This document shows positions 13,663-64,000 of a stretch of DNA of 64,000 nt, piece by piece (position 1 is the stretch's first letter; every line of letters begins with the position of its first letter). The position numbers were made by a program, and so were the translations under genes. A model generated the notes under the pieces. It was not told the DNA's origin, did not search any database, and saw nothing but the letters and a program-made list of their open reading frames with translations. Source of the DNA: Nitrospira sp. LK70 (GTDB lineage Bacteria; Nitrospirota; Nitrospiria; Nitrospirales; Nitrospiraceae); contig PHGD01000005.1 of assembly GCA_011090425.1 (NCBI GenBank), positions 1 to 64,000 on the forward strand, given 5' to 3'.

Positions 13663-16600
13663 TCACAGGACTTCACCGCACAACACCTCCGCCTGCTCCA
13701 ACACAGTTTGGGTCGCTCTCTCTTGCTTATCCGGTGGATAGCCATGCTTGCGGAGAATACGTTTCACAATGACGCGCAACTGGGCTCGCACGTTCTCCCG
13801 AACGGTCCAATCGATCGTCACATTTTTACGAACCGCCTCAGCCACCTCGCGTGCAATCGTTCGCAGCGTCTCATCGCCTAGTACGTTCACTGCGCTGTCG
13901 TTCGTTTCGAGCGCGTCATAGAACGCCATTTCTTCTTCGGTCAGGCCAAGCCGCTCTCCTCGTTCATGGGCACGGCGCATATCCTTGGCTAACCCGATCA
14001 TCTCCTCTATAACCTGTGCAGCCTCAATAGCCCGGTTCTGGTACTTCCGCACCGCCTGTTCCAGCATTTCAGCAAAGGACTTCGCCTGCACCACATTCTT
14101 GCGCGACCGTACCTTGATTTCTCCGCTCAGCAACTTCCGTAAGAGCTCGACTGCTAGATTTTTCTGCGGCATCCCTCGCACTTCGGCGAGAAACTCGTCG
14201 GAGAGGATCGAGAGATCCGGCTTCTTGAGCCCGGCCGCAGCAAAAATGTCCACGATCTCGTCGGACAGCACCGCCTTTGAAATGATCTGCCGAATCGCAT
14301 GGTCGAGTTCTTCATCCGTCTTCTGTTCACCCGACATACTCTTCGCCAGCACTGAACGCACCGCCTGGAAGAATCCGACATCATCTCGAATCCGGAAGGT
14401 CTCCCCGTGTGGCACGGCCAGCGCGAAGGCTTGCGAAAGGTCCGCCACCGCACGGAGCAGCCGTGCCTTCCCATCTTGCTGTTTCAAAATATGCTCTTGG
14501 GCTGTCGGCAACACGGAGAGACGTTCCTGAGGTTTTCCAGTCGTCCATTGAGACCAATTGAAGCCATGAAAGAAGCCTCGGCAGATTTCATACTTCTCCA
14601 GCATCACCGCAACGGCCTCCGCTTGGTCGATGGCCGTCTTACCGGTTCCACCACTTTCGGTGTAGGTCGCAAGAGCCTGCTTGAGTTCGTCGGCCAGGCC
14701 GAGGTAGTCCACAACCAAGCCACCAGGCTTATCTTTGAACACGCGGTTCACACGGGCGATCGTCTGCATCAGCCCATGCCCGCGCATCGGCTTATCGACG
14801 TACATTGTATGCAGGCTGGGGGCGTCGAAACCGGTCAGCCACATGTCACGAACAATGACGAGCCGAAAATGATCTTTGGGGGCACGGAACCGCAGCGCCA
14901 TATCTTCCCGGCGTTTCTTGTTCCGGATATGACCCTGCCACTCGACCGGATCGGACGCCGAGCCGGTCATAATCACCTTCATCGATCCCTGATCATCCGC
15001 ATCGGCATGCCATTGTGGGCGCAGCGCACCAATCTCGCGGTACAACTCGACGCAGATCCGCCGGCTCATGCATACCACCATCGCTTTGCCATCCATTGCC
15101 CCAAGGCGATCTTCGAAGTGATCGACGAGGTCTCGCGCGATCAATTTGATCCGATTCTCCGACCCTACCACGGCTTCCAGTTGCGCCCATTTTGTTTTGA
15201 GCTTCTCCTTGCGCTCGACTTCTTCCCCCTCAGTTGCCTCTTCAAACTTGGAATCGATCTTCGGCCACTCGGACGATTTCAGGTCGAGCTTCGCAAGCCG
15301 GCTTTCATAGTAGATGGGAACGGTCGCCTTGTCGACGACCGCCCGCTGGATATCGTAGATGCTGATGTAGTCGCCGAACACAGCGCGGGTGTTGGCATCG
15401 GTCTTTTCGATCGGTGTTCCAGTGAATCCGATGAACGAGGCATTTGGTAACGCATCCCGCATGTGGCGAGCAAAGCCGTCGATAAAGTCATACTGGCTCC
15501 GATGGGCTTCATCCGCGATCACGACGATATTGCGGCGATCCGAGAGCACAGGATGCCGGTCGCCTTTCTCCTCGGGAAAGAACTTCTGAATGGTGGTAAA
15601 TACCAGGCCTCCGAACGCCACGCTCAACTTCGCGCGCAGGTCAGTCCGGTCGGTCGCCTGAACAGGATCTTGGCGAAGCAGGTCACGGCACCGAGCAAAG
15701 GTACCGAAGAGTTGATCGTCGAGATCGTTGCGGTCGGTGAGCACGACGATGGTTGGGTTGGCCATCGTCGGATGCAGAATGACCCGTCCCGCATAGAAGG
15801 CCATCGTCAGGCTCTTCCCCGATCCCTGGGTATGTCATACCACTCCCACCCGCCTATCGCCAGGCTCGCCGCCTGGTTGGTGACCAGACCTGTACTCACC
15901 CAAGGCATCTGCAGCTTGGTGTTCTGTCACGCGTCGTGCAGCTCGTAATGTTTCCTCGACGGCAACATTCACCGCATGGAACTGATGGTAGCCCGCCATT
16001 TTCTTACTCAGCTTCCCATGTCCCTCGTCCTCGAACACAATAAGTGCCGCACCAGATCGAGAAACCGTCGTTTATCAAAAACTCCTTCCAGGATGACTTG
16101 CAGTTCAGAAATCGTGGGAGCTGAGTCCTGCACCCCTGCAATTGTTCGCCAGGGTTTAAACCATTCCTTCCCAGCCCCGAGCGTTCCAATACGAGCCTGG
16201 ACACCGTCAGAAATAACCAACGCTGCATTCGTGGCGAAGAAAGAGGGAATCTGGGCCTGGTAGGTCTGAAGCTGCTGATAGGCACTCCAAATCGTGGCAT
16301 CTTCGTCTGCCGGATTCTTCAGCTCGATGACTGCGAGAGGCAAGCCGTTGACGAACAGCACCACGTCCGGCCGTCTCGTGTGTTGTCCCTCCGACACCGT
16401 GAATTGGTTGACGGCGAGCCAATCGTTGTTCTCTGGCGCGTCGAAATCGATGACACGGGCCTGCGCGCCAGCAATCGACCCATCTTTCCGGCGATATTCG
16501 ACATTCACTCCATCCATAAGCATCCGATGGACGGCACGATTCCGTTCGACCAGAGCGGGCGCATCGGTCCGTATCAGTTTTCGAAAGGCATCTTCGAGCG

Positions 16601-45498: not shown

Positions 45499-45654
45499 AG
45501 GACTGCGAGTAACAGAACCCTGGTGGCCTGTCAATGAATAGTCTTTCAAATATTCTTTCCGCCTTGCTCTCCCGTTGACAAGACCAAAGGGGAAATGCTA
45601 AACGAAGAAGTGTTTCCTTTTAATCTACTAAAGGAACTTTGAAAGGAGTTTTGA

Positions 45655-46377
45655 ATGTCGACCCCGGATACTCCTGCTGCCACCTCGACGCCTCGACGCC
45701 AGTATGTAAATTTTGTTTTTTATAAAGTGGACCCGGCCTGGCGGCGTCTACCGGAGGATGTGCGCACGCAGGGCAAACAAGAGTTTCTCCGGGCTGTGGA
45801 AGATTTCAACGGCAAGGTGCTGGTGGTCCCCTATTCCACCATCGGCATTCGGGGGGACTGCGACTTCATGCTGTGGCGTATCAGCTACGATCTCGACCTG
45901 TTCCAGGACATGGGCACCAAGATCCTCGCCTCCGGCCTCGGACAGTACCTCTCCACCCCCTATTCTTACTTGGCGCTGACCAAACGGTCCGTCTATGTCG
46001 ATCACCACTCGCACGCGGGACAGGAAGGAAAACGTCTGACGGTGGTGCCGGGAAAGAGCAAGTATATCTTTGTCTATCCGTTTCTCAAGACGCGAGAATG
46101 GTTTCTGCTGACGAAGGCAGCACGCCAGGGCATGATGGACGAACATATCGAAGTGGGGCATCGCTTTCCGTCCGTGAAGCTGAACACGACCTATTCGTTT
46201 GGTTTGGACGATCAGGAATGGGTCGTGGCGTTTGAAAGCGACAAGCCGGAAGATTTTCTGGACTTGGTGATGGCGCTGCGGGAGACCGAGGGATCGCGAT
46301 ATACCCTGCGCGACACCCCGATCTTTACCTGCATCCGACGCAGTCTCAAGGAAACCCTCGACACCCTCGGCGGCTAG
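45655..46377 (+). CDS. Chlorite dismutase superfamily heme protein, coproheme decarboxylase-like
   Basis: A 240-aa dimeric ferredoxin-fold heme protein; AAAGGAG stands ahead of the ATG. The proximal heme ligand is His164 (MMDEHIEVGHRF). At the distal site, where true chlorite dismutases have Arg (Arg173 in the N. defluvii enzyme) and Firmicute coproheme decarboxylases have Gln, this protein has Leu176. It has Tyr141 (FVYPFLKTREWF) at the catalytic Tyr position of coproheme decarboxylase. These residues argue against chlorite dismutation and for the final step of coproporphyrin-dependent heme synthesis. No signal peptide is seen. A rho-independent terminator follows. Confidence 0.8.
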   Translation: MSTPDTPAATSTPRRQYVNFVFYKVDPAWRRLPEDVRTQGKQEFLRAVEDFNGKVLVVPYSTIGIRGDCDFMLWRISYDLDLFQDMGTKILASGLGQYLSTPYSYLALTKRSVYVDHHSHAGQEGKRLTVVPGKSKYIFVYPFLKTREWFLLTKAARQGMMDEHIEVGHRFPSVKLNTTYSFGLDDQEWVVAFESDKPEDFLDLVMALRETEGSRYTLRDTPIFTCIRRSLKETLDTLGG

Positions 46378-46400: not shown

Positions 46401-46440
46401 AGGGTCTTCGGTCGTGACGATCGAAGACCCTTTGTTTTTT
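46401..46440 (+). terminator. Rho-independent terminator after the heme-protein gene
   Basis: The arms AGGGTCTTCG (46401-46410) and CGAAGACCCT (46422-46431) form a 10-bp perfect stem with an 11-nt loop, followed by TTGTTTTTT. It is 24 bp past the stop codon and is the clearest terminator in the window. Confidence 0.9.
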
Positions 46441-51357: not shown

Positions 51358-54036
51358 TCAACCTACGACAAACTGCTTCACCAGCCCCGCCAGCGTCATG
51401 TTCTCGGCGATCACGTCGTGTGGAATCAGCAGATACTTCCAAGGTTTGCCGCCATTGGTGAGCGAGTGGGTCGTGGCGCGTGAACACCAGAGAACGGCGG
51501 CGCCTTTCTTGGCCAGTACCTCAGGGGAGTTCATTTCATTCTTGGCTTTTGGTTCGAGCATGTAAATGCAGTCTGCTGTTTCAGCCACGAAATCAGGCTG
51601 GTATTCATGCTGTGACACGCCCAATTTATAAAACATCTGGAATTGTCCGGAAGCGGGCCTGAACCACTTCCGCGAATCACGGTCAAGAATAATAGCGAGC
51701 TTCCGTTCAGGGTCAGATTGAAACTTGAGTTCTTTGAATAGGCACCGCTCAAACCCACCGAAAAGCATCTGGGGAATGCGCCCCTTGTCTTGAACCGTTT
51801 CACGAAAGTTGTGAACCGGCTCGCCTTCTTTCACGGTAAAAGCTGGCTTCTTGAGATCAGTAAAACCCGTCGTGACGACCACGTCATAGCCCCCAGCTTT
51901 TTCCCACTGGTGTTCTTGCATTTGCGCATGAACGAAGGCTGCAAGAGGCTTCTGGTGGTAGATGAGTACATTCCTGGTATCTTCCTCTGGCAGATACGAC
52001 CGGAGGTGGTTCACCAATTGGTCTGCGATGTCATAGAGCAGATCAGAGTGCTCGTCGTAGCTAATGTCATCGAAGTCCACAAGGCCCCGAACGACATAAT
52101 CTTCGAGCCGTTGCTCCGGCCGCATCTGTCCCCCGAAGCTCAAGGTTTCTTGCTCATAGGTCCGCAGATGCTGAATCAGGAGATCCCGCTCAACAGGCTG
52201 ATAGTTGATGCTTGAACAATCCAGCGAAAAGGCATGAAAGCCTGTCGTGATCTCACCCTTCGGCACGATCAGAATCCTCGGAATATCGATCGATTGTTGC
52301 ACGACCAGCTGAGCAGTCTTCGCGACGACCGATGCGATATTCGGAGTTGGAGCCATACCAGGCAAGGCCTGTTGGCTTGGGGTGACAGATTGCTTCACCT
52401 CTTCAACAATTTTGGCCTGAATCTCCGGCTTTAGAAGATCGGAAGAGGACGGAAGGTTTTCATATTTTTGGATGATCTTGTACACCGTCTGCGCAATCCC
52501 TCGTTCCAGCTCACCGGAAAAGATCGGAGTGGCTTGTGCGGCTCCACCAACAGCACCAGTGACAGAAGCCCCATGCAGTTGCTCCTCGATTTTTGACTGA
52601 GCCACGACGGTTTTCGTCTTCTGGAGGTCGGTTGTCGGATCAAGTTCCACCTTCGTCAATCGGATCACGGAGTCCGGCTTATTGGCCTCATCCACGATTT
52701 CCTGAAACCGGTCATGGGCCACGATGTTCAGCCGATCGACCGTGCTCACGCCGGTACGCTTACCATAGGGAAGCCGAAGACCACGGCCGATGGATTGCTC
52801 GATCAGTGTTCGCGCGTTTGCGGCTCTGAGCGGTACGATTGTGTAGAGATTCGTCACATCCCAGCCTTCTTTCAGCATGTTCACGTGAATCACGATTTCG
52901 GTGGGCTCATCCGGGCTTTCCACTGCCAGCAGACGCTGAACCATCTCGTCCTCTTCCGCACCGGTCTTGCTGGAGTCCACCTGAATGGCCTTGTCCTTGT
53001 AACGACCTTCGAAGAACTGGAAGGACTGGATCAACTGCATCAATTGGCTGGCATGGGTCGTGTCGCGGGCAATGATCAACATGAATGGCTTTACGATCCG
53101 CTGCCCTACCTGCCTCGCGTAGGTTTCCAGTTCCACTTTGGTGTTCTCGTGGAGGCGTATGCCGTCTTCCAGTTTGATCTGTTCGAGCTGTGCAACGTTG
53201 AACTGACTCGGATTAAAATTCTTCTGCGTCACCACAGCCGGCTCTTTGACAAAGCCGTCAGCCATCGCTTGAGATAATTGATAGGTGTAGATCACGTTCT
53301 TGAACCACACCGGCCCTTTGGATGATTCCACGAACGGAGTCGCTGTGAGTTCCAGCCCAAGAACCGGCTTGAGGTCATTGATGGCCCGGACACCGGCCGA
53401 GGCCCGATACCGGTGCGACTCGTCCATGATGAGAACGAGATCTTCAAGTCCTGCCAAATACTCGAAGTAACTCTGGCCGATGTACTCCGAGAGACGCTTG
53501 ATCCTCGGCGCTTTTCCACCACGGACTTCAGAATTGATCTTCGAGATATTGAAGATGTTGATGTGCACTTCTTGGCCGAATCCAGGTAGAGAAGTCATGC
53601 GAGCCGCCACGCCTGATTCATAGTTGTCACCGGTGATAATGGTCGGCGGGTCCGTGGCAAATTCGGCAATCCCGGTGAAGACGTACTTCGACGTGTTGGG
53701 CGTAAAGTCGGTGATCAGCTTGTTGTAGATCGTCAGGTTCGGGGCCAACACAAAGAAGTGATTGATTCCATGCGCAGCGTGCAAATAACTGATGAAGGCT
53801 CCCATGAGGCGAGTTTTGCCGACTCCGGTCGCGAGGGCAAAGCAGAGCGAGGGAAACTCCCGTTCAAAGTCGGTGACGGTCGGAAACTCACTCTTGATCG
53901 CCGCCAGCGCCGTGGCGATATCCGCCCCCTTCTTAGGCGAAACAACCTCCGTCACGCGATCGAGAATCTCCAGCGATTGCCGCTGCGGTGGCCGCAGACT
54001 CAACCGACCGGCAATGGCATTGACGTGGCGGTTCAT
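51358..54036 (-). CDS. res: Type III restriction helicase-nuclease (Res)
   Basis: An 892-aa SF2 helicase with C-terminal nuclease. Walker A is ATGVGKT (69-75), the DExH box is IMDESHRY (Asp205-His208), then LGLELTATPF (motif III) and EQSIGRGLRLP (motif VI). Near the end, YQPDFVAETADCIYMLEPKAK gives a PD...ExK nuclease core. It is the restriction subunit matching the Mod protein encoded upstream, from which it is separated by a two-gene DUF4258/DUF2283 unit. It starts 15 bp after DUF2283. It appears intact. Confidence 0.88.
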   Translation of the reverse strand: MNRHVNAIAGRLSLRPPQRQSLEILDRVTEVVSPKKGADIATALAAIKSEFPTVTDFEREFPSLCFALATGVGKTRLMGAFISYLHAAHGINHFFVLAPNLTIYNKLITDFTPNTSKYVFTGIAEFATDPPTIITGDNYESGVAARMTSLPGFGQEVHINIFNISKINSEVRGGKAPRIKRLSEYIGQSYFEYLAGLEDLVLIMDESHRYRASAGVRAINDLKPVLGLELTATPFVESSKGPVWFKNVIYTYQLSQAMADGFVKEPAVVTQKNFNPSQFNVAQLEQIKLEDGIRLHENTKVELETYARQVGQRIVKPFMLIIARDTTHASQLMQLIQSFQFFEGRYKDKAIQVDSSKTGAEEDEMVQRLLAVESPDEPTEIVIHVNMLKEGWDVTNLYTIVPLRAANARTLIEQSIGRGLRLPYGKRTGVSTVDRLNIVAHDRFQEIVDEANKPDSVIRLTKVELDPTTDLQKTKTVVAQSKIEEQLHGASVTGAVGGAAQATPIFSGELERGIAQTVYKIIQKYENLPSSSDLLKPEIQAKIVEEVKQSVTPSQQALPGMAPTPNIASVVAKTAQLVVQQSIDIPRILIVPKGEITTGFHAFSLDCSSINYQPVERDLLIQHLRTYEQETLSFGGQMRPEQRLEDYVVRGLVDFDDISYDEHSDLLYDIADQLVNHLRSYLPEEDTRNVLIYHQKPLAAFVHAQMQEHQWEKAGGYDVVVTTGFTDLKKPAFTVKEGEPVHNFRETVQDKGRIPQMLFGGFERCLFKELKFQSDPERKLAIILDRDSRKWFRPASGQFQMFYKLGVSQHEYQPDFVAETADCIYMLEPKAKNEMNSPEVLAKKGAAVLWCSRATTHSLTNGGKPWKYLLIPHDVIAENMTLAGLVKQFVVG

Positions 54037-54051
54037 TGAGACTCCGCCATC

Positions 54052-54276
54052 CTAACTAGCTGAAGCAAGTTTCTTGGGTCGAGTCTCGAACTGGAAATCC
54101 ATTAAATTAACCGGATGAGGCCTCTTCGAAAGATAGAGCACTTCAATGCCGACCACTTGATTGGCGTCGTCGTAGTCGACAATCACGCCAGGCGCCACCT
54201 CTTCTGACTCTTCCACCGGGACATCCACCAATTGGAGATGCAGCGCATCAGCTTCTTCATCCACCTTGAGTCTCAT
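54052..54276 (-). CDS. DUF2283 protein, putative antitoxin
   Basis: A 74-aa protein with the full DUF2283 pattern: MRLKVDEEADALHLQL, VAPGVIVDYDDANQVVGIEVLYLSKR. DUF2283 genes are commonly next to DUF4258 genes and the pair behaves like a toxin-antitoxin module. Here its ATG overlaps the DUF4258 stop by 4 bp. It lies between mod and res. Confidence 0.85.
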   Translation of the reverse strand: MRLKVDEEADALHLQLVDVPVEESEEVAPGVIVDYDDANQVVGIEVLYLSKRPHPVNLMDFQFETRPKKLASAS

Positions 54277-54542
54277 AACCGCCTCCTCATCTTTCGATCA
54301 AAATAAAACGTGATGATCCGTAGTGGATTGGTGCCTTTCTTGACGATCACGCGCAATACCCGTCCATCATACTCTTGAATGCGTCCCAGGCGATGCTCTA
54401 GTTCGGCATCGACAGAGTCCGGCTCCACACGCTCAGGATGTTGCAAAACCCGTTCAATCCATTCGATCCGAATGATCGGGCGTTTGCGCAAGCTCTCCCG
54501 GGCGTGATCCGACAGCTCATAGAACTTCCCATCCGCCATCAA
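54273..54542 (-). CDS. DUF4258 protein, putative toxin
   Basis: An 89-aa protein with the DUF4258 features: LSDHARESLRKRPI, the central WIERVLQHPERVEPD and a closing RVLRVIVKKGTNPLRIITFYFDR, similar in layout to RelE-type folds. It overlaps mod by 4 bp and DUF2283 by 4 bp, so all are read together. The toxin role is inferred from the pairing. Confidence 0.8.
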   Translation of the reverse strand: MMADGKFYELSDHARESLRKRPIIRIEWIERVLQHPERVEPDSVDAELEHRLGRIQEYDGRVLRVIVKKGTNPLRIITFYFDRKMRRRL

Positions 54543-56161
54543 GAGAATTCCAATCCTTGCTGCCCCGGTGGAGGTGGAGCCTTCGGCAAATTCTCGATCT
54601 TCAGGCTGTAATCGTCATGGCCCCATTCGCAGCGGGAGAGGACGGTCTTCGGAATCTTCTTGATCGTGAGATTGGGATACTTGCCGGGCTTGCCACGGAA
54701 GGCGGAACACATCACCAAGAGCGTCCGCTCTTCGCCCACTTCATCACTCAAGGCCTGCAATTGATCGTGGTTCAGGTTCTGCGTGGTCACATAGATGAAA
54801 TCCCGTTCCGTCGAATGACCCTGTTGCCAATAGACGGCATCACTCGGCGCATAGGTAAACCCTTCCAGCTTGCAGACCGCTTGAGCCAGCATGGCGGGGT
54901 TGTAAGCCTTGTTGATGACCCAGTTGCCCCACTTATCTTTCTCCAGCAGCGACGGCGCAAGGTGGTAGTAACGGAACCCTCCGCCGCCTTTCCAGCCAAC
55001 TGCCTCAGTGATACCACCCTTGTCTTCGCCATCGATGACTTTCTTGAGCCGGGGAATAATGTGCGTATGACAATGCTCGCCCAATTCGACCATGATCCAG
55101 CGCCGGCCCATCTTGTGGGCGACAGCCCCAGTGGTGCCCGAACCAGCGAAGGAGTCGAGTACCCAGTCGCCCTGATTAGATGCAATGTGAAGTATTCGCT
55201 CAATCAGTCCTTCGGGTTTGGGAGTAGCAAATCGTTCTATGTCGGGTAGGAGCTTGTTTAGGTGATCACGTTTCGCCTGCTGGTTGGTCCCAACTTCATC
55301 AGCCGACCACCATGTCCGAGGTGCAACGCCTTCGCGCACTTCGGTTAAATATCGTTTGATGATTGGTAATCGATCCCCATCAGCCCCGAAATACGCTCGG
55401 CCTTCGGCGCGAGCCTGTTCTAGGGTTTGAGGTGAAAAAGCCCAGTATCTTCCCGGTGGCGGCGTTACAACACGACCAGAGGGCAAAGTTACGGGGAACC
55501 GCTGTTTTTCCGTACCACTTTTTGCCGTGCCATCATCTCCCTGCCGCCATGCACCGCGCGGATCATTATCGAGATTCTTGAAGCGTCCTATCTGAACCTC
55601 GGAGCGGGGAAGAAGGTTTCGTGAATCGGACCAAATCGCGTGATCTTTCGAAAACACGAGAATGTTATCATGCGAAAGAGAGATGTCCGCATCACCTCGA
55701 CCACCTTTGTCCTTCTCCCAAACGCAAGTTGCAACAAAGTTGGTTCGGCCATATATCTCGTCACACAGTACTTTGAGGTAGTGTGCCTCATTGTCATCAA
55801 TAGTAATCCAGAGTGAACCATCGTCAGACAGCAGCCGTCGCATGATTTCTAGGCGATCACGCATCAGAGACAGCCAGATGGAATGTTCAACTCCGTCGTC
55901 GTAATGTTCGAACGCACTACCTGTGTTGTACGGAGGATCAATGAAGATACACTTGATCTTTCCGGTAAACTCTTGCTCCAACGCCTTGAGAGCCAGCAGG
56001 TTGTCGCCGAAGATGAGCCGGTTGTCGAAGATGTCGTGGTCGGTGACGCGGTGCGCCGCGTGATAGGACCTCTCCGGGTCCTCCAGCAGAATCCGCGGCT
56101 CCAGCTTCGGCCGGTTCTCCTTCCCGATCCAGGTGAGCTCGAGTTTTGTATTACCCTTCAT
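54539..56161 (-). CDS. mod: Type III DNA methyltransferase (Mod)
   Basis: A 540-aa beta-class amino-methyltransferase. The catalytic motif DPPY is at 75-78 (FIDPPYNTGSAF) and comes before the SAM motif DSFAGSGTTGAVAH (around residue 345), the order of the beta group. The middle holds the target-recognition region. The C-terminus ends GQQGLEFS. It overlaps the ATPase gene upstream by 11 bp and DUF4258 downstream by 4 bp. With res it should make a type III restriction system. Confidence 0.9.
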   Translation of the reverse strand: MKGNTKLELTWIGKENRPKLEPRILLEDPERSYHAAHRVTDHDIFDNRLIFGDNLLALKALEQEFTGKIKCIFIDPPYNTGSAFEHYDDGVEHSIWLSLMRDRLEIMRRLLSDDGSLWITIDDNEAHYLKVLCDEIYGRTNFVATCVWEKDKGGRGDADISLSHDNILVFSKDHAIWSDSRNLLPRSEVQIGRFKNLDNDPRGAWRQGDDGTAKSGTEKQRFPVTLPSGRVVTPPPGRYWAFSPQTLEQARAEGRAYFGADGDRLPIIKRYLTEVREGVAPRTWWSADEVGTNQQAKRDHLNKLLPDIERFATPKPEGLIERILHIASNQGDWVLDSFAGSGTTGAVAHKMGRRWIMVELGEHCHTHIIPRLKKVIDGEDKGGITEAVGWKGGGGFRYYHLAPSLLEKDKWGNWVINKAYNPAMLAQAVCKLEGFTYAPSDAVYWQQGHSTERDFIYVTTQNLNHDQLQALSDEVGEERTLLVMCSAFRGKPGKYPNLTIKKIPKTVLSRCEWGHDDYSLKIENLPKAPPPPGQQGLEFS

Positions 56162-58514
56162 CGTCTACAGTTCCTAGATCCGCTCCTGGATAGATTAGAG
56201 GGTACAGCTCAAGATCTCCGCACGAACATTGCCAATGGCTTCCAGAAGGCCTTCGTGTTGGGAGCCTTTGACAGTTCTGGCAAATCAGATTGTCCGCCAA
56301 AGAAAGCACCTGCGTGCAAAATGACCTCACGTCTGCATCACTGACCTCGCTCCCCAGCGTTGCGAAGTGACAACCTACGGAATTTCGAACCCAGCTACTT
56401 CCCGTAGTGGTCTCAATCAGAGGTTCCAACGCTAGATCTGCTTTTGCTGCTCCATTGGTAGGTGGCTTTCGCGAGCGCAGTTCTTTTCCCAATTTTGAGT
56501 CAATTCCTTGGGCTAACTCGCCCAGAGTGTACTCGTTGCGAGTATTTCGTGGCACACGGCATCTGTATTTCACAGTGAGAAAGTCCAGCAAAGATTCTAA
56601 AATGATTCCGGCCTTAGAGGCAGCGACCTGACGATCGGATGGCCCTTTTCTTAAGATATCCCGTAGCTCTGAAATGGCAGTCTTGAACTCGCCGACGTGA
56701 AGACCGCGCTCCAACGTCCAAGGACCGAGTTCAATTAACTGAGTGTTGGCAGTCGGTCCTCTTGCCCACCGATAAATGTCTCGCCAAGGTCGATAGTGGG
56801 TGGTCACAAAGAACTGACTGTAGTGAGAGGCCTCCTCGTGGAGAATCTTCATAAATCTGGTGAGGTGGGGACTATCGATCGAGGTTAAGACATCATCAAG
56901 TATGACTATCGTTTTGTCTGTCTTAAAGAATTTGGCTAGAGCTAGGAAGACACATATGCCTAGGGTATCAAGATGCGATTCGCTGTAATAAGCCTGTGGC
57001 GGAAGATCTGATCCATCGTAGAATTGTGCATCGAACTCTAAAGAGCCAATGGTATTAGGTTTGAGATAGAAGCTGACTTTGCCGATGTCTTCTCCAGGAT
57101 GAAGCATTGCATAGAGCCGTTCCACTTCACCGGATATGTTCTTCAGAATCTCCTCAACGTAGTCTTTTCTTTCTGTTGATACAATGTTAAGAATGGCTTT
57201 CAGCTTCTTGAGAAGCGCCTCGAGAGAAGCAGCCTGAGCCTGCTTCTGTTTCATCGTCTCAAAATAACTCTTAATTGCATTGTGCTGGTTAACTGATTTC
57301 TGGTCCGCATCTTTTCGAGACTGAAGAAGAGTCCTGCATGGGAAGATCACCTTCCACAGTTGCCTTGCTTGTCCCTCAGTGGATTCAGAATGACCTGCGC
57401 CTGATAATAGACCACTGAAGTCCTCCCACTTGACACTCAACGTTGTAATTTCCCCTAATGTGCTACTCTTGATGCTCGAGCCGAGGGTCTTTAACTTTTC
57501 GCAGGCCTCTTTCTGAGTTTGGTCTAGAAGGGATGCCTTTGCATGCAGAGTCGTCTTTGCAGTTGAGACCTTCTCCATCAGAACTCTGATCTCTTGCATC
57601 TCCTTGATTCGATCCTTTAGGCGCCGGACCAGGTCAGCAGACGTAATTAGCTGCTCGCATACAGGGCATTGGCTTATTGTTGGCCTACCCTCTATGTAGG
57701 CCCTTGCCTCATCTAGCAATTTCAGCAATTCAGCATTTTGCTGCGCCTGTTCCGATTCAGCTTTCTTCAGTTTATCTTCCTCGTCTCTTAGCGATTGTTC
57801 TGCCCCTTTGTGGGCCGTCCGGGCAGAGTCGAGTGATGGGAAGACAGACTCTCCAAGCTTAAACGCTGACTCTAACTTTTCAATCTCCTTGACCTGTGCC
57901 TGAAGCTTCGTGATGTCACAAGATGATTCTTTCTCTGCCCAAGCAATAGCATCTGAGCCTGGCTTGCCTTCTTTCATCCATAGATTTTCCAAGCCATCTT
58001 TTGCCTGGGAATATGCACGGGTACTTTCGTCGAACGACTTTTGTGCGGACTTAAACGCTTCGCGCAAACCTTCTTCGGATTTCTCGATATTCGGTATTGC
58101 GATGAATGTCTTCAATTCTTCGAAGCGATCTTTCGGTCGGGCATCGATAAGTTTAAGGATTGCTTTGCGTCGAAGAATGCGAGCGTCTGGATAGCCACTG
58201 TCGGGCGTAACTTCAGGGCCGTCCTTCCCGAAAACAGCAACCCATGATGACGAATCAGTGCTCAGGGTTATTTTGACCCCAGAGGCTGTCAATTTGAACG
58301 AAGGAACGTATTTCTTCGGCGATTCTCCAAAGTGGTAGTTTTCAAGGGAACCGTAAGTCCCATTGCAGAGAAAGTCGAATGCATCGGCAATGGTTGACTT
58401 GCCCGTTCCGTTTTCCCCAAAGATAAGAGTAACTGCCTTAGTAGTATCGAACGTTATTTCGACAGGGACCGTTGCTCCTCTGAATCCTGCCATTGAGACC
58501 TTAGTGATCTTCAT
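56151..58514 (-). CDS. Rad50-like ATPase with zinc hook and C-terminal HEPN-type motif
   Basis: A 787-aa SMC/Rad50-type ATPase. Walker A is GENGTGKST (33-41). Coiled-coil stretches flank a zinc-hook-like Cys283-Pro-Val-Cys286. The second lobe holds a signature-like YYSESHLDT (509-517), Walker B TIVILDDV (Asp540, Asp541) and His573 (H-loop). After the ATPase comes an extra C-terminal domain (about 630-787) with SWVRNSVGCHF: Arg710-x5-His716 fits the HEPN ribonuclease motif R-x(4-6)-H. A zinc ribbon follows (Cys745, 748, 763, 765). RloC has a related build but a different nuclease. An RNA-cutting effector gated by DNA sensing is a reasonable hypothesis. It is coupled to a 63-aa gene upstream by a 14-bp overlap. 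Confidence 0.75.
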   Translation of the reverse strand: MKITKVSMAGFRGATVPVEITFDTTKAVTLIFGENGTGKSTIADAFDFLCNGTYGSLENYHFGESPKKYVPSFKLTASGVKITLSTDSSSWVAVFGKDGPEVTPDSGYPDARILRRKAILKLIDARPKDRFEELKTFIAIPNIEKSEEGLREAFKSAQKSFDESTRAYSQAKDGLENLWMKEGKPGSDAIAWAEKESSCDITKLQAQVKEIEKLESAFKLGESVFPSLDSARTAHKGAEQSLRDEEDKLKKAESEQAQQNAELLKLLDEARAYIEGRPTISQCPVCEQLITSADLVRRLKDRIKEMQEIRVLMEKVSTAKTTLHAKASLLDQTQKEACEKLKTLGSSIKSSTLGEITTLSVKWEDFSGLLSGAGHSESTEGQARQLWKVIFPCRTLLQSRKDADQKSVNQHNAIKSYFETMKQKQAQAASLEALLKKLKAILNIVSTERKDYVEEILKNISGEVERLYAMLHPGEDIGKVSFYLKPNTIGSLEFDAQFYDGSDLPPQAYYSESHLDTLGICVFLALAKFFKTDKTIVILDDVLTSIDSPHLTRFMKILHEEASHYSQFFVTTHYRPWRDIYRWARGPTANTQLIELGPWTLERGLHVGEFKTAISELRDILRKGPSDRQVAASKAGIILESLLDFLTVKYRCRVPRNTRNEYTLGELAQGIDSKLGKELRSRKPPTNGAAKADLALEPLIETTTGSSWVRNSVGCHFATLGSEVSDADVRSFCTQVLSLADNLICQNCQRLPTRRPSGSHWQCSCGDLELYPLIYPGADLGTVDDEG

Positions 58515-58692
58515 CGGTTGCCTTTGCTTTATCCGTGAGATCTAGCTCAATCGCCAGTTTCCAGTCCTCTGCAGATAGTTTCCCAGCAACGAGTTGTGGT
58601 TTAAGTTTCCTGAGTGCAGATTCTGACAAGAGCTTCTGCTTGCGAAGTTGTTCAATGATTCGATCTGCTACTTGTTCATCTGGCTTGCTCAT
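58501..58692 (-). CDS. 63-aa partner of the Rad50-like ATPase
   Basis: A small acidic-to-neutral helical protein: VADRIIEQLRKQKLLSESALRKL then LVAGKLSAEDWKLAIELDL. It overlaps the ATPase gene by 14 bp, so translation is coupled. No family was recognised. It may be a subunit, inhibitor or antitoxin of the ATPase. The start ATG at 58692 is weakly supported. Confidence 0.6.
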   Translation of the reverse strand: MSKPDEQVADRIIEQLRKQKLLSESALRKLKPQLVAGKLSAEDWKLAIELDLTDKAKATDEDH

Positions 58693-58717
58693 TTGAAGTA
58701 TCCCTGCCGAAGGCCAA

Positions 58718-59995
58718 CTATTCTCCTGGCTCTCTCGGTGGTGCGTTCAAAGCTCGGATGTCCAGTCCTTCGATCTCCTTGAGAGATTTTCCGGCGATAC
58801 CCTGGAGATCCCCATACATACCAACAGTGGCCTGCATCACTCGTTCAATCTGCTCCTCACGTTTGGCCCATTGTTTGATGATGGCTTTCTTCTCTTTATC
58901 GAGATCCTCTTGCATGGATGAGAATGCTTCGACAATTGCTGAAACCCGATGTCGGAAGCGCGGGCCGGTTAGATATTGGTAAATCATTTCGGTCTTGGTG
59001 TGCTGCCCCTCGGAGGCTTGACGGGCTGAGGCGACTTCGATCAGCGTGTGGCGGAGGGTGACGGCCAGGGGGAGTATGGTCCTAGGATGAGTGACCCAGA
59101 CGCCTTCGACGACACCAAAAGTCTCGACTTCTTTCGGGAGTGATTGGCTCACAATGACCGCGATCTCCGCTTTGGCCGTCCGTTGGTCCTCACGGAGCTT
59201 CGCGAGCCAGCCATCGCTCCAGTTCTTGGTGCGCTTCGATTCCCAGATAATGGTCCCGCAGGGCTGCCCGCCAGGCCCGACAACATGCTGGAGCGCGTCA
59301 CCACCATGTTCGCCTTTGGGAACCGGTTCTATCGTGTCTCGTGGAAACTTTGCCCGCAACAAGGCTTCCAGTTCGAGCTCCTGCACTTCCCCCTGAAGCT
59401 GCTGCGAGCCCTGCTCGGCTTTTCGCTTGAGCTCCTCAATCTGCTTCTGCATCGATGCGATCGTTTGCTCTTTCTCCAATACTTTGAGCTTCAGTCCCTC
59501 CTCGGCTTCTTTCTTGGCCTGCTCCCTCGTCGCGGCGAGCCCTTCCTGGACTCGTTTTTCAACGGTCAGTTCCAGTTCACGCTTGGCATCGTCGAGTTCG
59601 CGTTGCTTCCGAAGGAGATCAGCCTGTACTTTCTGAGCCTCGACCAGCTTCGCGTCGCGTTGCCTGATGACTTCCTGTAGGTCGGCGAGGTCTTTAGCCT
59701 TTTGGTCAAGATCTGTCTGCAAGACGAGCTTGGCCTTCTTCGCTTCCTCGATGGCAATCTTTCCGCGCTCGAGTTTGAGCTTCTCAGCCACCTGCTCCTC
59801 GAGTGCCTGCTGCGCTTTAGAGAGTGTTTCTTCCCGCTCCCGCAATGCGGCATCGCGTTTCGCCACATCGGCATCTTTCTGGACGAGGCGCTTCTCGTAC
59901 TCACGTCGAGTGGACTCGATCAGCGGTGCTGCGAGCGACTCCGTGAGCTTGATCTCGGTCTTACAACTTGGACAGATGATGGTTGGTTCACTCAT
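58718..59995 (-). CDS. DUF2130 coiled-coil protein
   Basis: A 425-aa protein. An N-terminal Cys9-x2-Cys12 (half zinc ribbon) is followed by about 180 residues of heptad coiled coil (residues 30-215), then the DUF2130 core: ALLRAKFPRDTIEPVPKGEHGGD, IIWESKRTKNWSDGW, AKAEIAVIVS. The D...E-S-K-R arrangement resembles PD-(D/E)xK nuclease folds. Proteins of this family often occur near restriction and mobile genes. Its function is unknown. It lies 25 bp upstream of the 63-aa gene. Confidence 0.85.
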   Translation of the reverse strand: MSEPTIICPSCKTEIKLTESLAAPLIESTRREYEKRLVQKDADVAKRDAALREREETLSKAQQALEEQVAEKLKLERGKIAIEEAKKAKLVLQTDLDQKAKDLADLQEVIRQRDAKLVEAQKVQADLLRKQRELDDAKRELELTVEKRVQEGLAATREQAKKEAEEGLKLKVLEKEQTIASMQKQIEELKRKAEQGSQQLQGEVQELELEALLRAKFPRDTIEPVPKGEHGGDALQHVVGPGGQPCGTIIWESKRTKNWSDGWLAKLREDQRTAKAEIAVIVSQSLPKEVETFGVVEGVWVTHPRTILPLAVTLRHTLIEVASARQASEGQHTKTEMIYQYLTGPRFRHRVSAIVEAFSSMQEDLDKEKKAIIKQWAKREEQIERVMQATVGMYGDLQGIAGKSLKEIEGLDIRALNAPPREPGE

Positions 59996-60009
59996 AACCC
60001 CCCACGCCC

Positions 60010-60136
60010 TTACCGTACCTGCCAGCGAACAGAAAACAACTGCTGCGAGCTTACCTTTTGTTGCAGCTTTCCCTCAATCTCATTGATCAGTTGCTCGCGC
60101 CGACGGTCAATTTCTTCTCGGGCGTCACGCAATAAA
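60010..60136 (-). pseudogene. 3' remnant of an SNF2-type helicase
   Basis: The minus-strand frame DAREEIDRRREQLINEIEGK and QQKVSSQQLFSVRWQVR ends at TAA (60010-60012). It matches, with changes, the last 40 residues of the helicase at 61621-64000 (DAQDEIDRRREQLIAEIEGK...). No start or upstream helicase sequence is present. It sits on the far side of the AlbA_2 gene from the intact helicase end. Confidence 0.9.
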
Positions 60137-60142
60137 CACTGC

Positions 60143-61636
60143 TCACTCCCGCTTCGCCTTCAGCGCCTTCATCCCTTCCACTGTCAGCCGATACTTCTGC
60201 AACCGGCTCTGTGGCTTGTCGGGGATGGTCATCTCCAACCAGCCGGCGGCAAGCAGGCGCTTCAGGTAACTAAGCCGGAAATGCTCGCGATCCTTGATGT
60301 CTGCCGCGGTTTGGAGCGCCTCTCGCGTTTGCGGTCGCTGCGCAGCCTGCAATACCTTCGCCACTTGCGGGGTGACTTGCGGGGTCACCTGCGGGGTCAC
60401 CTGCGGGGTCACCTGCGGGGTGACTTGTTGGGGCCCGGCGACATTCACACGAAACGTCACGACTGCGGCGCCTGTGATTTCCTCGAATGTCGGGGCAGGG
60501 ATTTCCGCCTCCCGACACATGTCCACCACTCGATTCGTGCCGCGACCCCATTTCTCGATCAGGCCGGTGCGATGAAAGATGTCGGCGATGATCGGATTGC
60601 GTTGAACGGAAAGATGCTGCCTCGTCAATGACTCCGGCGTGATGCCATTGGGAAAAACACCCGCGCTCCAGATCTCCACCCGGTCGTCGAAGATCGCCAA
60701 AGACACCGCCCCTCCTGCTATGGCGTAGTCCCGGTGTATGAGTGCGTTGACCATGATCTCGCGCATGGCATCGGGAGGAATGAGGGGCGTTTCGATGCGT
60801 CGCATCTGTCCCGGCACAATCTTCGCCGGAAGGGGGAAGTGCCGCTGGCAAAACAATTCCGCTTCTTCCAGCAACTTGAACGCGGGCCCTCGGAGCTGGC
60901 GCTGATCGAGAAATTCCGTCTTGTCGGCACCACGGAAACGCGCCATGCGCAGTTCACATTGGGGATAGTCCGGCAGGAACGTCTTGCCGAACAGCACGAC
61001 GGCGGCCTGAAGGATCTGCCCGTTCTGCCGCAGCCCCAACCGATCGAGCACGTCCGACAGGCTCTTCCCCACCGGCCCCACCAATCGTCCAACGGATCGA
61101 GCGATCTCGACAATCCTGAACACCTCCTCACGATCGATGTCTTTCAGCGAAACCCCGTGCGCGGGCTGATTCTCCCACCGCCGCTTGCTATGGGATCGTT
61201 CGAAGAGCAAGTGCTCATAGCGATCTTGCGACATCTTCCGGGTGGTATTGCCGACTCGCTCATAGGGCCGTCCTTCGAAGGTGAAGGGGATCGCGTCCGA
61301 CGTACCTTCACTCCGCAAGACCAGCACAGCCCGGCCTGCCTCGGTCTGAATGCGTTCAACCGAGATGTTGACGGGTGGTTCGAACCGGTCCATCGCCTGG
61401 GCAATCTCCCGGAGGGTTTGTTCGGTGGCGTGCTGCCCTTCCGGTTTCCCATCCGGTCGTACTCCAAACAGGACCATTCCACCCGATCCATTCAGAAAGG
61501 CACAGACCGTCTGCAACCCCTCGCGTAATTCGCCGGTGGATCGCTTGAACTCCAACGTCAGCCCTTCCCCCTCCTTGAGAAGTCGGTTCAGTTCCTTGGA
61601 GCCTGCCGGTGCCCTTGGGATCATTTCACTGTCCAT
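60143..61636 (-). CDS. AlbA_2/Schlafen-like ATP-binding protein
   Basis: A 497-aa protein. The N-terminal AlbA_2 (Schlafen-like) domain has LTLEFKRSTGELREGLQTVC, NGSGGMVLFGVRPDGK and YERVGNTTRKMS. The middle has a GHKL-like ATP-binding part (ALIHRDYAIAGG, VEIWSAGVFPNGI, EKWGRGTNRV), and the end is a winged-helix domain. A run of five VTPQ units (about residues 405-425) links the parts. Such proteins act as transcription regulators or defence components. It overlaps the helicase stop by 16 bp. Confidence 0.82.
   Translation of the reverse strand: MDSEMIPRAPAGSKELNRLLKEGEGLTLEFKRSTGELREGLQTVCAFLNGSGGMVLFGVRPDGKPEGQHATEQTLREIAQAMDRFEPPVNISVERIQTEAGRAVLVLRSEGTSDAIPFTFEGRPYERVGNTTRKMSQDRYEHLLFERSHSKRRWENQPAHGVSLKDIDREEVFRIVEIARSVGRLVGPVGKSLSDVLDRLGLRQNGQILQAAVVLFGKTFLPDYPQCELRMARFRGADKTEFLDQRQLRGPAFKLLEEAELFCQRHFPLPAKIVPGQMRRIETPLIPPDAMREIMVNALIHRDYAIAGGAVSLAIFDDRVEIWSAGVFPNGITPESLTRQHLSVQRNPIIADIFHRTGLIEKWGRGTNRVVDMCREAEIPAPTFEEITGAAVVTFRVNVAGPQQVTPQVTPQVTPQVTPQVTPQVAKVLQAAQRPQTREALQTAADIKDREHFRLSYLKRLLAAGWLEMTIPDKPQSRLQKYRLTVEGMKALKAKRE
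60365..60424. repeat. 12-bp minisatellite in the AlbA_2 gene
   Basis: Five tandem units of (C/T)TGCGGGGT(C/G)AC in frame, giving five VTPQ repeats in the linker. Units differ only at the first base and at the C/G position. Copy number could vary by slippage without shifting the frame. Confidence 0.9.
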
Positions 61637-64000
61637 CGAATGATAAACAGCTGCTGCGTACCTACCTTTTGTTGCAGCTTGCCCTCAATCTCGGCAATGA
61701 GTTGCTCGCGCCGACGGTCGATCTCGTCTTGGGCATCGAAGAGGGCCCTGCGGCGCTTGCCTCGTTCGGCTTCGATCGCCTTGATCTGCTTTTGCCCGGC
61801 GAGCTTTTCTTCCAACGTGAGCGCGGCAACAGCGGCTTTCCGGGTCTCTTTGATCTGCCGGTCGAATTCTTTGATTTCGCGTTCTAAGCCCACCTTCAGG
61901 TCATCGGCCCATGAATCGAGTTTGTCGACTTCGACCTCAAAGAACTCTCCGTTGCGTGTTGATATCTGGCGGCGAATAGTCTCCTGACGCTCTTCCGCTC
62001 GGGAACGCATCGTCGGATAGTCAATCGAGGTGGTCACAGGTTGGGTAACAGTTCCCGGTAGGGAAAACAGCCGCTGGATGACTTCCTCATCCAAGACTTC
62101 GCCCGTATCGGTCACTCCCGTGCAGATGAGGTAGTCCTCTACTTGGTCCAGTGCCTCTACGGTGAAGAGTGACACATTCAACACTCCAGATTTGCCGATG
62201 AACGGCTCGACCACACTGACTTTCCCGTCATGCTTGCCATACTCGAAAGTCAGCTCTGCTGATTCCAAGGCACGATCTTTCGCTTGCATCAATACATGTT
62301 CGGCCAAAGGATGAGCGAGTCGATACAGGTGGGCTTCTCCTGTCCGACGAGGGAGTTCATACAGTCCAAGCGGAATGTCGCCTTCGAACGGACAGGACTT
62401 CAGCTTGAACGAGGAATCCGTGAGAAAGTCTGCGTGGTCGCGCAATTCATAGCGTGTCAGCTGCATCAAGATACGTTCGTAGCGATTCAGATAGAGCCGT
62501 GAGTGTTCGTCGCTGACGCGGAGCTTCTCCCGCACTTCGTCGTCAAAGTGCTCGAACAGGAGCTGTCGGGCGCGGGTCATGGCTTCATCAATCTGGGTGC
62601 CGAGTTCGCTCTGTAACTGGTCGAAGGAGGTTTTGATTTCCTGCGGAGTACGGCAACGCTGGTAGATGTCGGCAATGCGTTTCTCGAAATCCACGCCGGA
62701 CTCGATCGCGCCCAAGACTTCGTCGCTGGCGCCAAAGACTCCTTCGAAGAGCTGGAACTTCTCGGATAGTAGGCGGAAAACATGCTGGTCAGCTTCGTTG
62801 GTCTGATTCAGGAAATTCACGACCACGACATCGTGTTTCTGCCCATAGCGGTGGCATCGGCCAATGCGTTGCTCAATGCGTTGCGGGTTCCACGGAAGGT
62901 CATAGTTGACCACGAGGGAGCAGAATTGAAGATTGATGCCCTCGGCTCCCGCTTCCGTGGCAATCATAATCTGGCCCTGGTCTTTGAAGTAGTCCACGAT
63001 AGCGGAGCGCATATCGGCGGAGCGAGAGCCAGTGACCCGGTCTGTGCCTCGATGACGTTCAAGCCATGCCTGGTAGATCTGTTTCGACTTCTCGTCGTTG
63101 TTTGCGCCGTTGAACAAGACGATGTGGTCTTTCCACGGACTGTCCGCGAGAACCCGAAGCAGGTATTCCTGGGTTCGTCTGGATTCGGTAAAGATGATCG
63201 CTTTCTGAGCCGCTCCGAGTTCTGCCGCCTTCCCGAAGGCTGTTCGCAACGCGGTGAGGAGAGCCTGCCCCTTCGCGTTGTGGGTGATCGAGACGGCCAG
63301 TTTACTGAAGCCTTCAAGATCCTCGATCTCCTGTTGAATGGCCTTGCGATCCGCTTCGCTCAGGGGTTCAGATGGGGCCTCTTCCTCCTCCCATTCGTCT
63401 GCGATCTCGTCCAGGGCCTCGAAGTCCTCCTCCAGCGCTGCTTCCAGCGGATTTGGTCCGTCAGCCTGTCGAAGCCGTTCACGAAGGCGGGAACTCATGG
63501 AATCCAGCGCGCCAGCGATTGCGAAGGAGGAGGAGGCCAAGAGCTTGCGAAGCACGAGCGTCATCAGAGACCGTTGACTCGACGGGAGCGCTTGCAGGTT
63601 GTCTCGCCGGAGATAGTCGGACACCAGATGATAGAGCCGGTCTTCGCTCTCCGCCGGCGTAAACGGCTGCACCATAGGAAGGCGCTTGGTATAGCGCACA
63701 TAGGGCAAGACTTGGCGACGCAGGGTGCGCTTACAAAGCGGTTGTAGCCGGGCTTTCAGGGTGTCGAAGGTCGCCTGGTTGTGCAGATTTGCAAACTGGT
63801 CTTTAAAGCTCTTGAGGTCGCCGAAGATACGGTCGTCGACCACACTCACCAACCCATACAACTCCAGCAGCGAGTTCTGTAGTGGGGTGGCGGTAAGGAG
63901 CAGCTTCAGCGCGTCTCTGAGGGCATGCTTCAGCGTATTGGCGATGATGTTGGTCGGTTTATAAACGTTTCGTAGACGATGGGCTTCGTCGATCACAACC
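61621..64000 (-). CDS. SNF2-type helicase, N-terminus outside window
   Basis: At least 793 residues of an SF2 helicase of the SNF2/RapA type. The visible part starts at the DEAH box (VVIDEAHRLRN), followed by LLLTATPLQNS (motif III), AIIFTESRRTQEYLLRVL (IV), MIATEAGAEGINLQFCSLVVNYDLPWNP (V) and QRIGRCHRYGQ (VI). Walker A lies beyond the window edge. The C-terminus is a coiled coil (EEKLAGQKQIKAIEAERGKR) ending in WTVK. It heads the visible minus-strand defence run and overlaps the AlbA_2 gene. Helicases of this type occur in several phage-defence loci. Confidence 0.85.
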   Translation of the reverse strand, partial: VVIDEAHRLRNVYKPTNIIANTLKHALRDALKLLLTATPLQNSLLELYGLVSVVDDRIFGDLKSFKDQFANLHNQATFDTLKARLQPLCKRTLRRQVLPYVRYTKRLPMVQPFTPAESEDRLYHLVSDYLRRDNLQALPSSQRSLMTLVLRKLLASSSFAIAGALDSMSSRLRERLRQADGPNPLEAALEEDFEALDEIADEWEEEEAPSEPLSEADRKAIQQEIEDLEGFSKLAVSITHNAKGQALLTALRTAFGKAAELGAAQKAIIFTESRRTQEYLLRVLADSPWKDHIVLFNGANNDEKSKQIYQAWLERHRGTDRVTGSRSADMRSAIVDYFKDQGQIMIATEAGAEGINLQFCSLVVNYDLPWNPQRIEQRIGRCHRYGQKHDVVVVNFLNQTNEADQHVFRLLSEKFQLFEGVFGASDEVLGAIESGVDFEKRIADIYQRCRTPQEIKTSFDQLQSELGTQIDEAMTRARQLLFEHFDDEVREKLRVSDEHSRLYLNRYERILMQLTRYELRDHADFLTDSSFKLKSCPFEGDIPLGLYELPRRTGEAHLYRLAHPLAEHVLMQAKDRALESAELTFEYGKHDGKVSVVEPFIGKSGVLNVSLFTVEALDQVEDYLICTGVTDTGEVLDEEVIQRLFSLPGTVTQPVTTSIDYPTMRSRAEERQETIRRQISTRNGEFFEVEVDKLDSWADDLKVGLEREIKEFDRQIKETRKAAVAALTLEEKLAGQKQIKAIEAERGKRRRALFDAQDEIDRRREQLIAEIEGKLQQKVGTQQLFIIRWTVK

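Follow-up and report, generated by a model that had tools for sequence, protein, structure and literature searches.

Features of the chdC locus

The window, the whole 64,000-nucleotide stretch of Nitrospira sp. LK70 DNA analyzed here (contig PHGD01000005.1, positions 1 to 64,000), contains a putative coproheme decarboxylase gene with the following features:

45642–45648, + strand: Shine-Dalgarno-like box AAAGGAG, 6 nt upstream of the chdC ATG, read from the sequence
45655–46377, + strand: chdC (hemQ), predicted coproheme decarboxylase of 240 aa, PF06778, ATG start, from profile and alignment
46006–46014, + strand: codons for His118-Ser-His120 in the domain-linking loop, one of them a candidate distal base, from alignments
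46075–46077, + strand: Tyr141 codon, catalytic-Tyr position of ChdC, within Y-P-F-L-K, from alignments
46144–46146, + strand: His164 codon, proximal heme ligand position, from alignments
46180–46182, + strand: Leu176 codon, at the place of the chlorite dismutase (Cld) catalytic Arg, from alignments
46401–46431, + strand: terminator-like stem-loop of 14 pairs with a T tail, beginning 23 nt past the chdC stop codon

A preliminary description had placed a chlorite-dismutase-superfamily protein in this reading frame, and the match to PF06778 (Chlor_dismutase) bears this out (E=1e-57; 195 bits with a cut-off of 25). It had also anticipated that such a gene may be labelled chlorite dismutase, as the PF06778 name alone would dictate. 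No signal-like stretch can be made out by eye in the protein N-terminus, MSTPDTPAATSTPRRQYVNF, and a signal scan found no promoter-like site on the + strand in the surroundings of chdC. The terminator signal is weak, as the single terminator-like site observed at chdC does not exceed the mean of 1.4 in shuffled sequences.

Scanning named genomes yielded 562 chdC relatives, the best 80 of which are 83–100% identical over the best segment and have no stop codons within it; these 80 are titled Nitrospira, Nitrospirae, Nitrospiraceae, or Nitrospirales, with one Nitrosospira. At least one window-gene neighbor is kept in 60 of these 80 loci, and in 59 it is a cinA-like gene located upstream on the other strand, so the window gene is the copy at a conserved locus. 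The other 20 have none of these neighbors, and some of them are second copies. In a phylogenetic tree the window gene adjoins L049, to which it is 98% identical, in the group of primary copies; we made no use of the deep tree order because of long branches and unsettled bootstrap values.

Elsewhere in the window there is a defense-type cluster (51358–63996) that includes a type III restriction enzyme and methyltransferase, an LmuB-like AAA protein, DUF2130, an AlbA_2/HATPase protein, and a DrmD-like SNF2 helicase. Positions 13663–15804 encode a 713-aa protein that resembles type I restriction R subunits and has T1RH-like_C.

Active-site residues

Residues were counted in a MAFFT alignment with 61 rows of ChdC and 16 of Cld. 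The ChdC rows were drawn from the 65 ChdC-type matches in the phylum and class samples (those of G159, G171, G176, and G177 fall outside), and the Cld rows from 40 Cld-type matches in the phylum sample; duplicate rows L001 and L080 and three PDB reference rows were left out, and five degenerate PF06778 rows were counted separately. At position 176, where all 16 Clds have Arg, the ChdC rows have Leu (48 of 61, as in the window protein) or Ile (13 of 61). All 61 ChdC rows have Tyr at position 141, which is Ile, Leu, or Val in the 16 Clds, and His is present at position 164 in all 77 rows (61 ChdC and 16 Cld). The preliminary description had named Leu176 as the residue at the distal Arg position and assigned Tyr141 and His164 to the catalytic Tyr and proximal His positions of coproheme decarboxylase; all three placements hold with the numbering unchanged, and the distal Arg that it would have taken as contrary evidence is Leu in the alignment. 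Two further markers, Arg66 and Asn177, are conserved in 61 of 61 ChdC rows, and the 16 Clds have Ser or Val at the first of these positions and Lys at the second.

The catalytic Tyr of ChdCs lies within a Y-P-M/F-x-K/R motif, which Y141-P-F-L-K145 of the window protein fits, and Tyr141 aligns with the Tyr of Corynebacterium diphtheriae ChdC (CdChdC). Tyr141, His164, and Leu176 are unchanged in all of the best 80 of the 562 relatives. The alignment with the NdCld chain 4m09, which we take to be a mutant at the Arg position, is gapless from Val174 onward. Positions were assigned by sequence alignment to solved chains and rest on it, because an AlphaFold model built from 39 close sequences was too poor for use (mean pLDDT 50, pTM 0.45). 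Published work describes Clds with a conserved Ile at the catalytic-Tyr site of ChdCs, and reports that proteins lacking this Arg 'proved to be coproheme decarboxylases'.

The domain-linking loop

Typical ChdCs are pentamers with two ferredoxin-like domains in the subunit. In the loop predicted to link such domains, the window protein has His118-Ser-His120, and both His residues are kept in each of the best 80 of the 562 relatives and in 55 of the 61 class rows. By-eye inspection of the columns aligns the loop His of solved chains with His118 (in the MAFFT and profile alignments and for 9mhq) but with His120 for 6xub. By analogy with the family, His118 or His120 would be the distal base. The other six of the 61 rows (families f27 and f29) have neither His and instead have another three residues on, in K-I-N-P-E-H. 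The distal base may have moved to this His in f27 and f29, as both loop His residues are absent, the other lies nearby, and the two members scanned have a PCP_red domain.

This domain (PF08369), named for a protochlorophyllide reductase subunit, is fused N-terminally to ChdC in those two members, L084:3618–4592 (f27) and L086:3656–4618 (f29). A different situation is seen in phylum family f14 (L072–L076), where the PF06778 frames, 340–551 aa long, have neither the catalytic Tyr nor the proximal His; L076, the one f14 member scanned, also has PCP_red, and all five f14 genomes have HemN over its cut-off. Conventional heme-enzyme function is improbable for the f14 PF06778 proteins.

A separate chlorite dismutase in the same genome

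The three top PDB matches of the window protein are all named coproheme decarboxylase (the best at 6.8e-25), and a profile search scores ChdC chains at 89 bits and Cld chains at 84 bits. Since Cld chains score nearly as high, the ChdC call rests on the active-site residues and the pathway. The protein misses the cut-off of the HemQ_actino model NF042928 (129 versus 235 bits).

Two PF06778 matches are present in the genome (G000), the window chdC and L002. L002 is a Cld, with the distal Arg, Ile at the Tyr position, and an N-terminus that is leader-like by eye, and it shares 26% identity with the window protein. Chlorite detoxification in this Nitrospira genome is served by a gene of its own.

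G117 has two Cld-type genes in tandem (L067) and three Cld-type matches besides its ChdC. In the amoA-bearing draft genome G105, in-frame stops interrupt the Cld gene, and chdC is present as a 56-residue fragment, at the end of a contig, that shares 98% identity with the window chdC. We considered G105 as an exception lacking ChdC but rejected it, as its chdC runs off the contig end; the pairing of Cld stops with a chdC fragment is weak evidence, coming from one draft genome.

Heme biosynthesis genes

The window chdC is not adjacent to heme genes, but hemE, hemH, and hemY are grouped together at L003 in the same genome, and hemH and hemY-type genes are what the preliminary description had proposed to look for as consistent with the coproporphyrin route. 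HemE, HemH, and HemY pass their cut-offs (TIGR01464, TIGR00109, and TIGR00562, respectively), of which the HemH and HemY models cannot separate CpfC from PpfC or CgoX from PgoX, and HemH and HemY fall below the stricter models listed for them. Against solved chains, HemH scores 195 bits with 2c8j (its best match), 187 with a chain named coproporphyrin III ferrochelatase, and 136 with the best chain named mitochondrial; HemY scores 331 bits with 3i6d, 278 with 2ivd, and 152 with 3nks. The cited section of PMC10427985 treats 3i6d as BsCgoX.

HemF has no match in the genome. HemN has none over the TIGR00538 cut-off; of two HemN-like matches below it, the better passes the HemW cut-off (244 versus 205 bits) and the weaker is known by score alone. 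The listed completeness of the genome is 99.98%, and its listed contamination 3.61%. With hemE-hemH-hemY present and HemF and HemN without a match over cut-off, coproheme can be made and no known protoporphyrinogen-making enzyme was found; the protoporphyrin-only pathway that would have spoken against the preliminary description is thus not what this genome encodes.

Distribution of ChdC across the class

Textbooks expect another heme route in this bacterial group. We scored ChdC in a class sample of 58 genomes as PF06778 at E 2.7e-40 or better, plus the G105 fragment, and found it in 47 (46 by score and G105 by fragment; G159 is counted by score alone). With HemN counted only over its cut-off, ChdC occurs without HemF/HemN in 46 genomes and with HemF in one (G148); HemF and/or HemN without a ChdC so scored occur in six (G119, G131, G151, G152, G154, and G156, with weak PF06778 matches in G151 and G154), and five have neither. 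This near-exclusion gives a Fisher p=7e-5 with relatedness ignored. The five genomes in which neither was found are G149 (85% complete), G153 (99%), G158 (65%), G165 (93%), and G166 (69%). Low completeness is no explanation for G153, which is also missing HemY over cut-off; in G165, hemY lies on a contig of 4,250 bases that lacks chdC. The ChdC of G171 and the partial matches of G176 and G177 are 67–73% identical to the window ChdC.

Linkage of chdC to other heme genes is seen in families f27 and f29: hemH, hemY, and chdC lie inside 7 kb in L088 (f29), and hemY adjoins chdC in L085 (f29) and L084 (f27). No hemE, hemH, or hemY was found near chdC in the fetched stretches of the f29 loci L086, L087, and L089, or in those of the remaining ChdC loci examined.

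Residues, pathway, and distribution together argue for the earlier proposal of heme synthesis over chlorite detoxification. From its sequence, the window gene very probably encodes ChdC/HemQ, acting at the last step of a coproporphyrin-dependent heme route in this Nitrospira.

Alternative functions

That the window protein is itself a chlorite dismutase, clearing chlorite from side reactions of nitrite oxidation, is hardly credible. It would account for the family name and for the gap of just a few bits between NdCld and ChdC chains in the profile search, but the distal Arg is missing, Tyr stands at a position that is Ile, Leu, or Val in all 16 Clds counted, the N-terminus differs from that of L002 in showing no signal-like stretch, and the genome has in L002 an Arg-bearing Cld of its own, at 26% identity. 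We also regard as very unlikely the alternative that the protein is a heme chaperone or peroxidase binding coproheme or heme, with decarboxylation carried out by an AhbD/NirJ2-like protein. An inactive archaeal ChdC homologue has reportedly been published, and the genome encodes a radical SAM protein (L184:1869–3254) that matches the AhbD model with 314 bits and might conceivably use coproheme as a substrate in the absence of oxygen. However, it is below the AhbD cut-off of 500 and those of all 25 NCBIfam models listed, with NirJ2 (320 bits) slightly above AhbD, and the window protein retains the ChdC catalytic residues. In the class sample, 50 of 58 genomes have an AhbD match at 1e-40 or better and 0 of 58 pass the cut-off; such proteins do not track the pathway, because they are also present in the HemF-bearing G119, G131, G148, G152, G154, and G156.

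A third reading, in which both routes operate in the genome and ChdC is a minor or stress enzyme, we give next to no credence. The co-occurrence of ChdC and HemF in G148 provides a precedent, and one of the two HemN-like matches in the window genome is known just by its score; against this, that nearly complete genome is without HemF, and HemN is below its cut-off.

The C-terminus of the L184 radical SAM protein is PCP_red-like by eye, as are repeats in an adjoining UspA-like protein, and close to the radical SAM gene is what by eye is a gene for a HalD-like oxygenase.

Second copies in amoA-bearing genomes

A second chdC copy without the window neighbors is present in 6 of 12 amoA-bearing and 0 of 20 amoA-lacking family genomes of the phylum sample (Fisher p=0.001, relatedness ignored). 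The second-copy loci are L134:4001–5778, L149:195–5778, L052–L056, and L046. At L134 a gap of 14 nt separates the second chdC from the Rieske/VanA_C oxygenase gene that follows it, and genes for HalD-like and SMBP-domain proteins are close by; L149 has the same gene order by eye, plus amoC. A Rieske protein of 84–100% identity was found in six genomes, all of them amoA-bearing, and by coordinates its gene is beside the second chdC in four of the six (G027, G036, G043, and G070); G135 has a second chdC but a Rieske match of only 34%. Some comammox bacteria may conceivably have a dedicated heme-modifying pair.

Relation to known systems

Like CdChdC (6xub) and 9mhq, the window protein has the Tyr of Y-P-F-x-K/R and the proximal His. 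It further resembles actinobacterial ChdCs at the Arg66 and Trp74 positions, in carrying a linker-loop His, and in the Asn-Thr that follows the distal position (V-R-A-N-T in the actinobacterial proteins and V-K-L-N-T here). It differs from them in having Leu/Ile rather than Ala at the distal position across its class, in a longer linker loop with His-x-His, and in falling under the NF042928 cut-off. The cited parts of PMC7611857 and PMC11761711 place the actinobacterial distal base, His118, on a flexible inter-domain loop. Firmicute ChdC/HemQ proteins (5loq, named lmo2113; 1t0t, named HemQ) are homologous through PF06778, but have a distal Gln and no base according to the same part of PMC7611857, whereas the window protein has Leu and the loop His. 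NdCld (from 'Ca. Nitrospira defluvii'; 3nn1 and mutants) and L002 belong to the same fold family and have the proximal His.

A further comparison is with the ChdC of 'Ca. Nitrospira defluvii', which differs from the window ChdC at 16% of the sequence as represented by G055; the G055 ChdC is 84% identical to it, and the tree places L060, the Cld row of G055, as the partner of the NdCld chain, with end branches of 0 and 0.016. By these sequence measures the two ChdCs are probably orthologs. Pfanzagl et al. 2018 reportedly found the 'Ca. Nitrospira defluvii' ChdC to be active. In the portion of the 2025 review PMC12670364 cited here, N. defluvii is a named exception in a sentence on the two routes; references 175–176 of that review are Pfanzagl 2018 and Maixner 2008, which presumably belong to this sentence. 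PMC8819088, in the passage relevant here, cites Pfanzagl 2018 for 'some diderm' users. The window gene is an ordinary ortholog, and ChdC in a diderm is already known. According to the cited section of PMC10427985 the coproporphyrin route is nearly confined to Gram-positive bacteria, and the only diderm phyla that the corresponding section of PMC10991733 names as reported to have ChdC in most analyzed genomes are Planctomycetota and Acidobacteria. In the excerpts of the literature searched we found no class-wide ChdC survey. As far as our searches show, the class-wide pattern, the loop His-x-His, and a second ChdC copy found solely in amoA-bearing genomes are new.

Proposed route and implications

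In the proposed route, HemE would form coproporphyrinogen III, which HemY (CgoX) would oxidize to coproporphyrin III, and HemH (CpfC) would insert the iron. ChdC would then use H2O2 to remove two propionates oxidatively via a Tyr141 radical, giving heme b, with His164 as the proximal ligand during decarboxylation and His118 or His120 of the loop as the distal base for H2O2. Peroxide-dependent oxidative decarboxylation via a Tyr141 radical is the best-supported mechanism; the reaction, the Tyr radical, a loop His as distal base, and which substrates HemH and HemY prefer are inferred from the family. More tentatively, and with rather less than even confidence, we suggest that the coproporphyrin route is the standard of this diderm class, with a ChdC site of its own in which Leu/Ile stands in for the distal Ala/Gln and the loop His-x-His provides the H2O2 base.

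For annotation, PF06778 by itself leads to the label chlorite dismutase for a gene such as the window chdC, when the true Cld sits elsewhere in the same genome. With ChdC in 47 of 58 sampled genomes, the coproporphyrin route looks like the rule in this class, and the His-x-His loop offers a directly testable candidate distal base outside the Actinobacteria.
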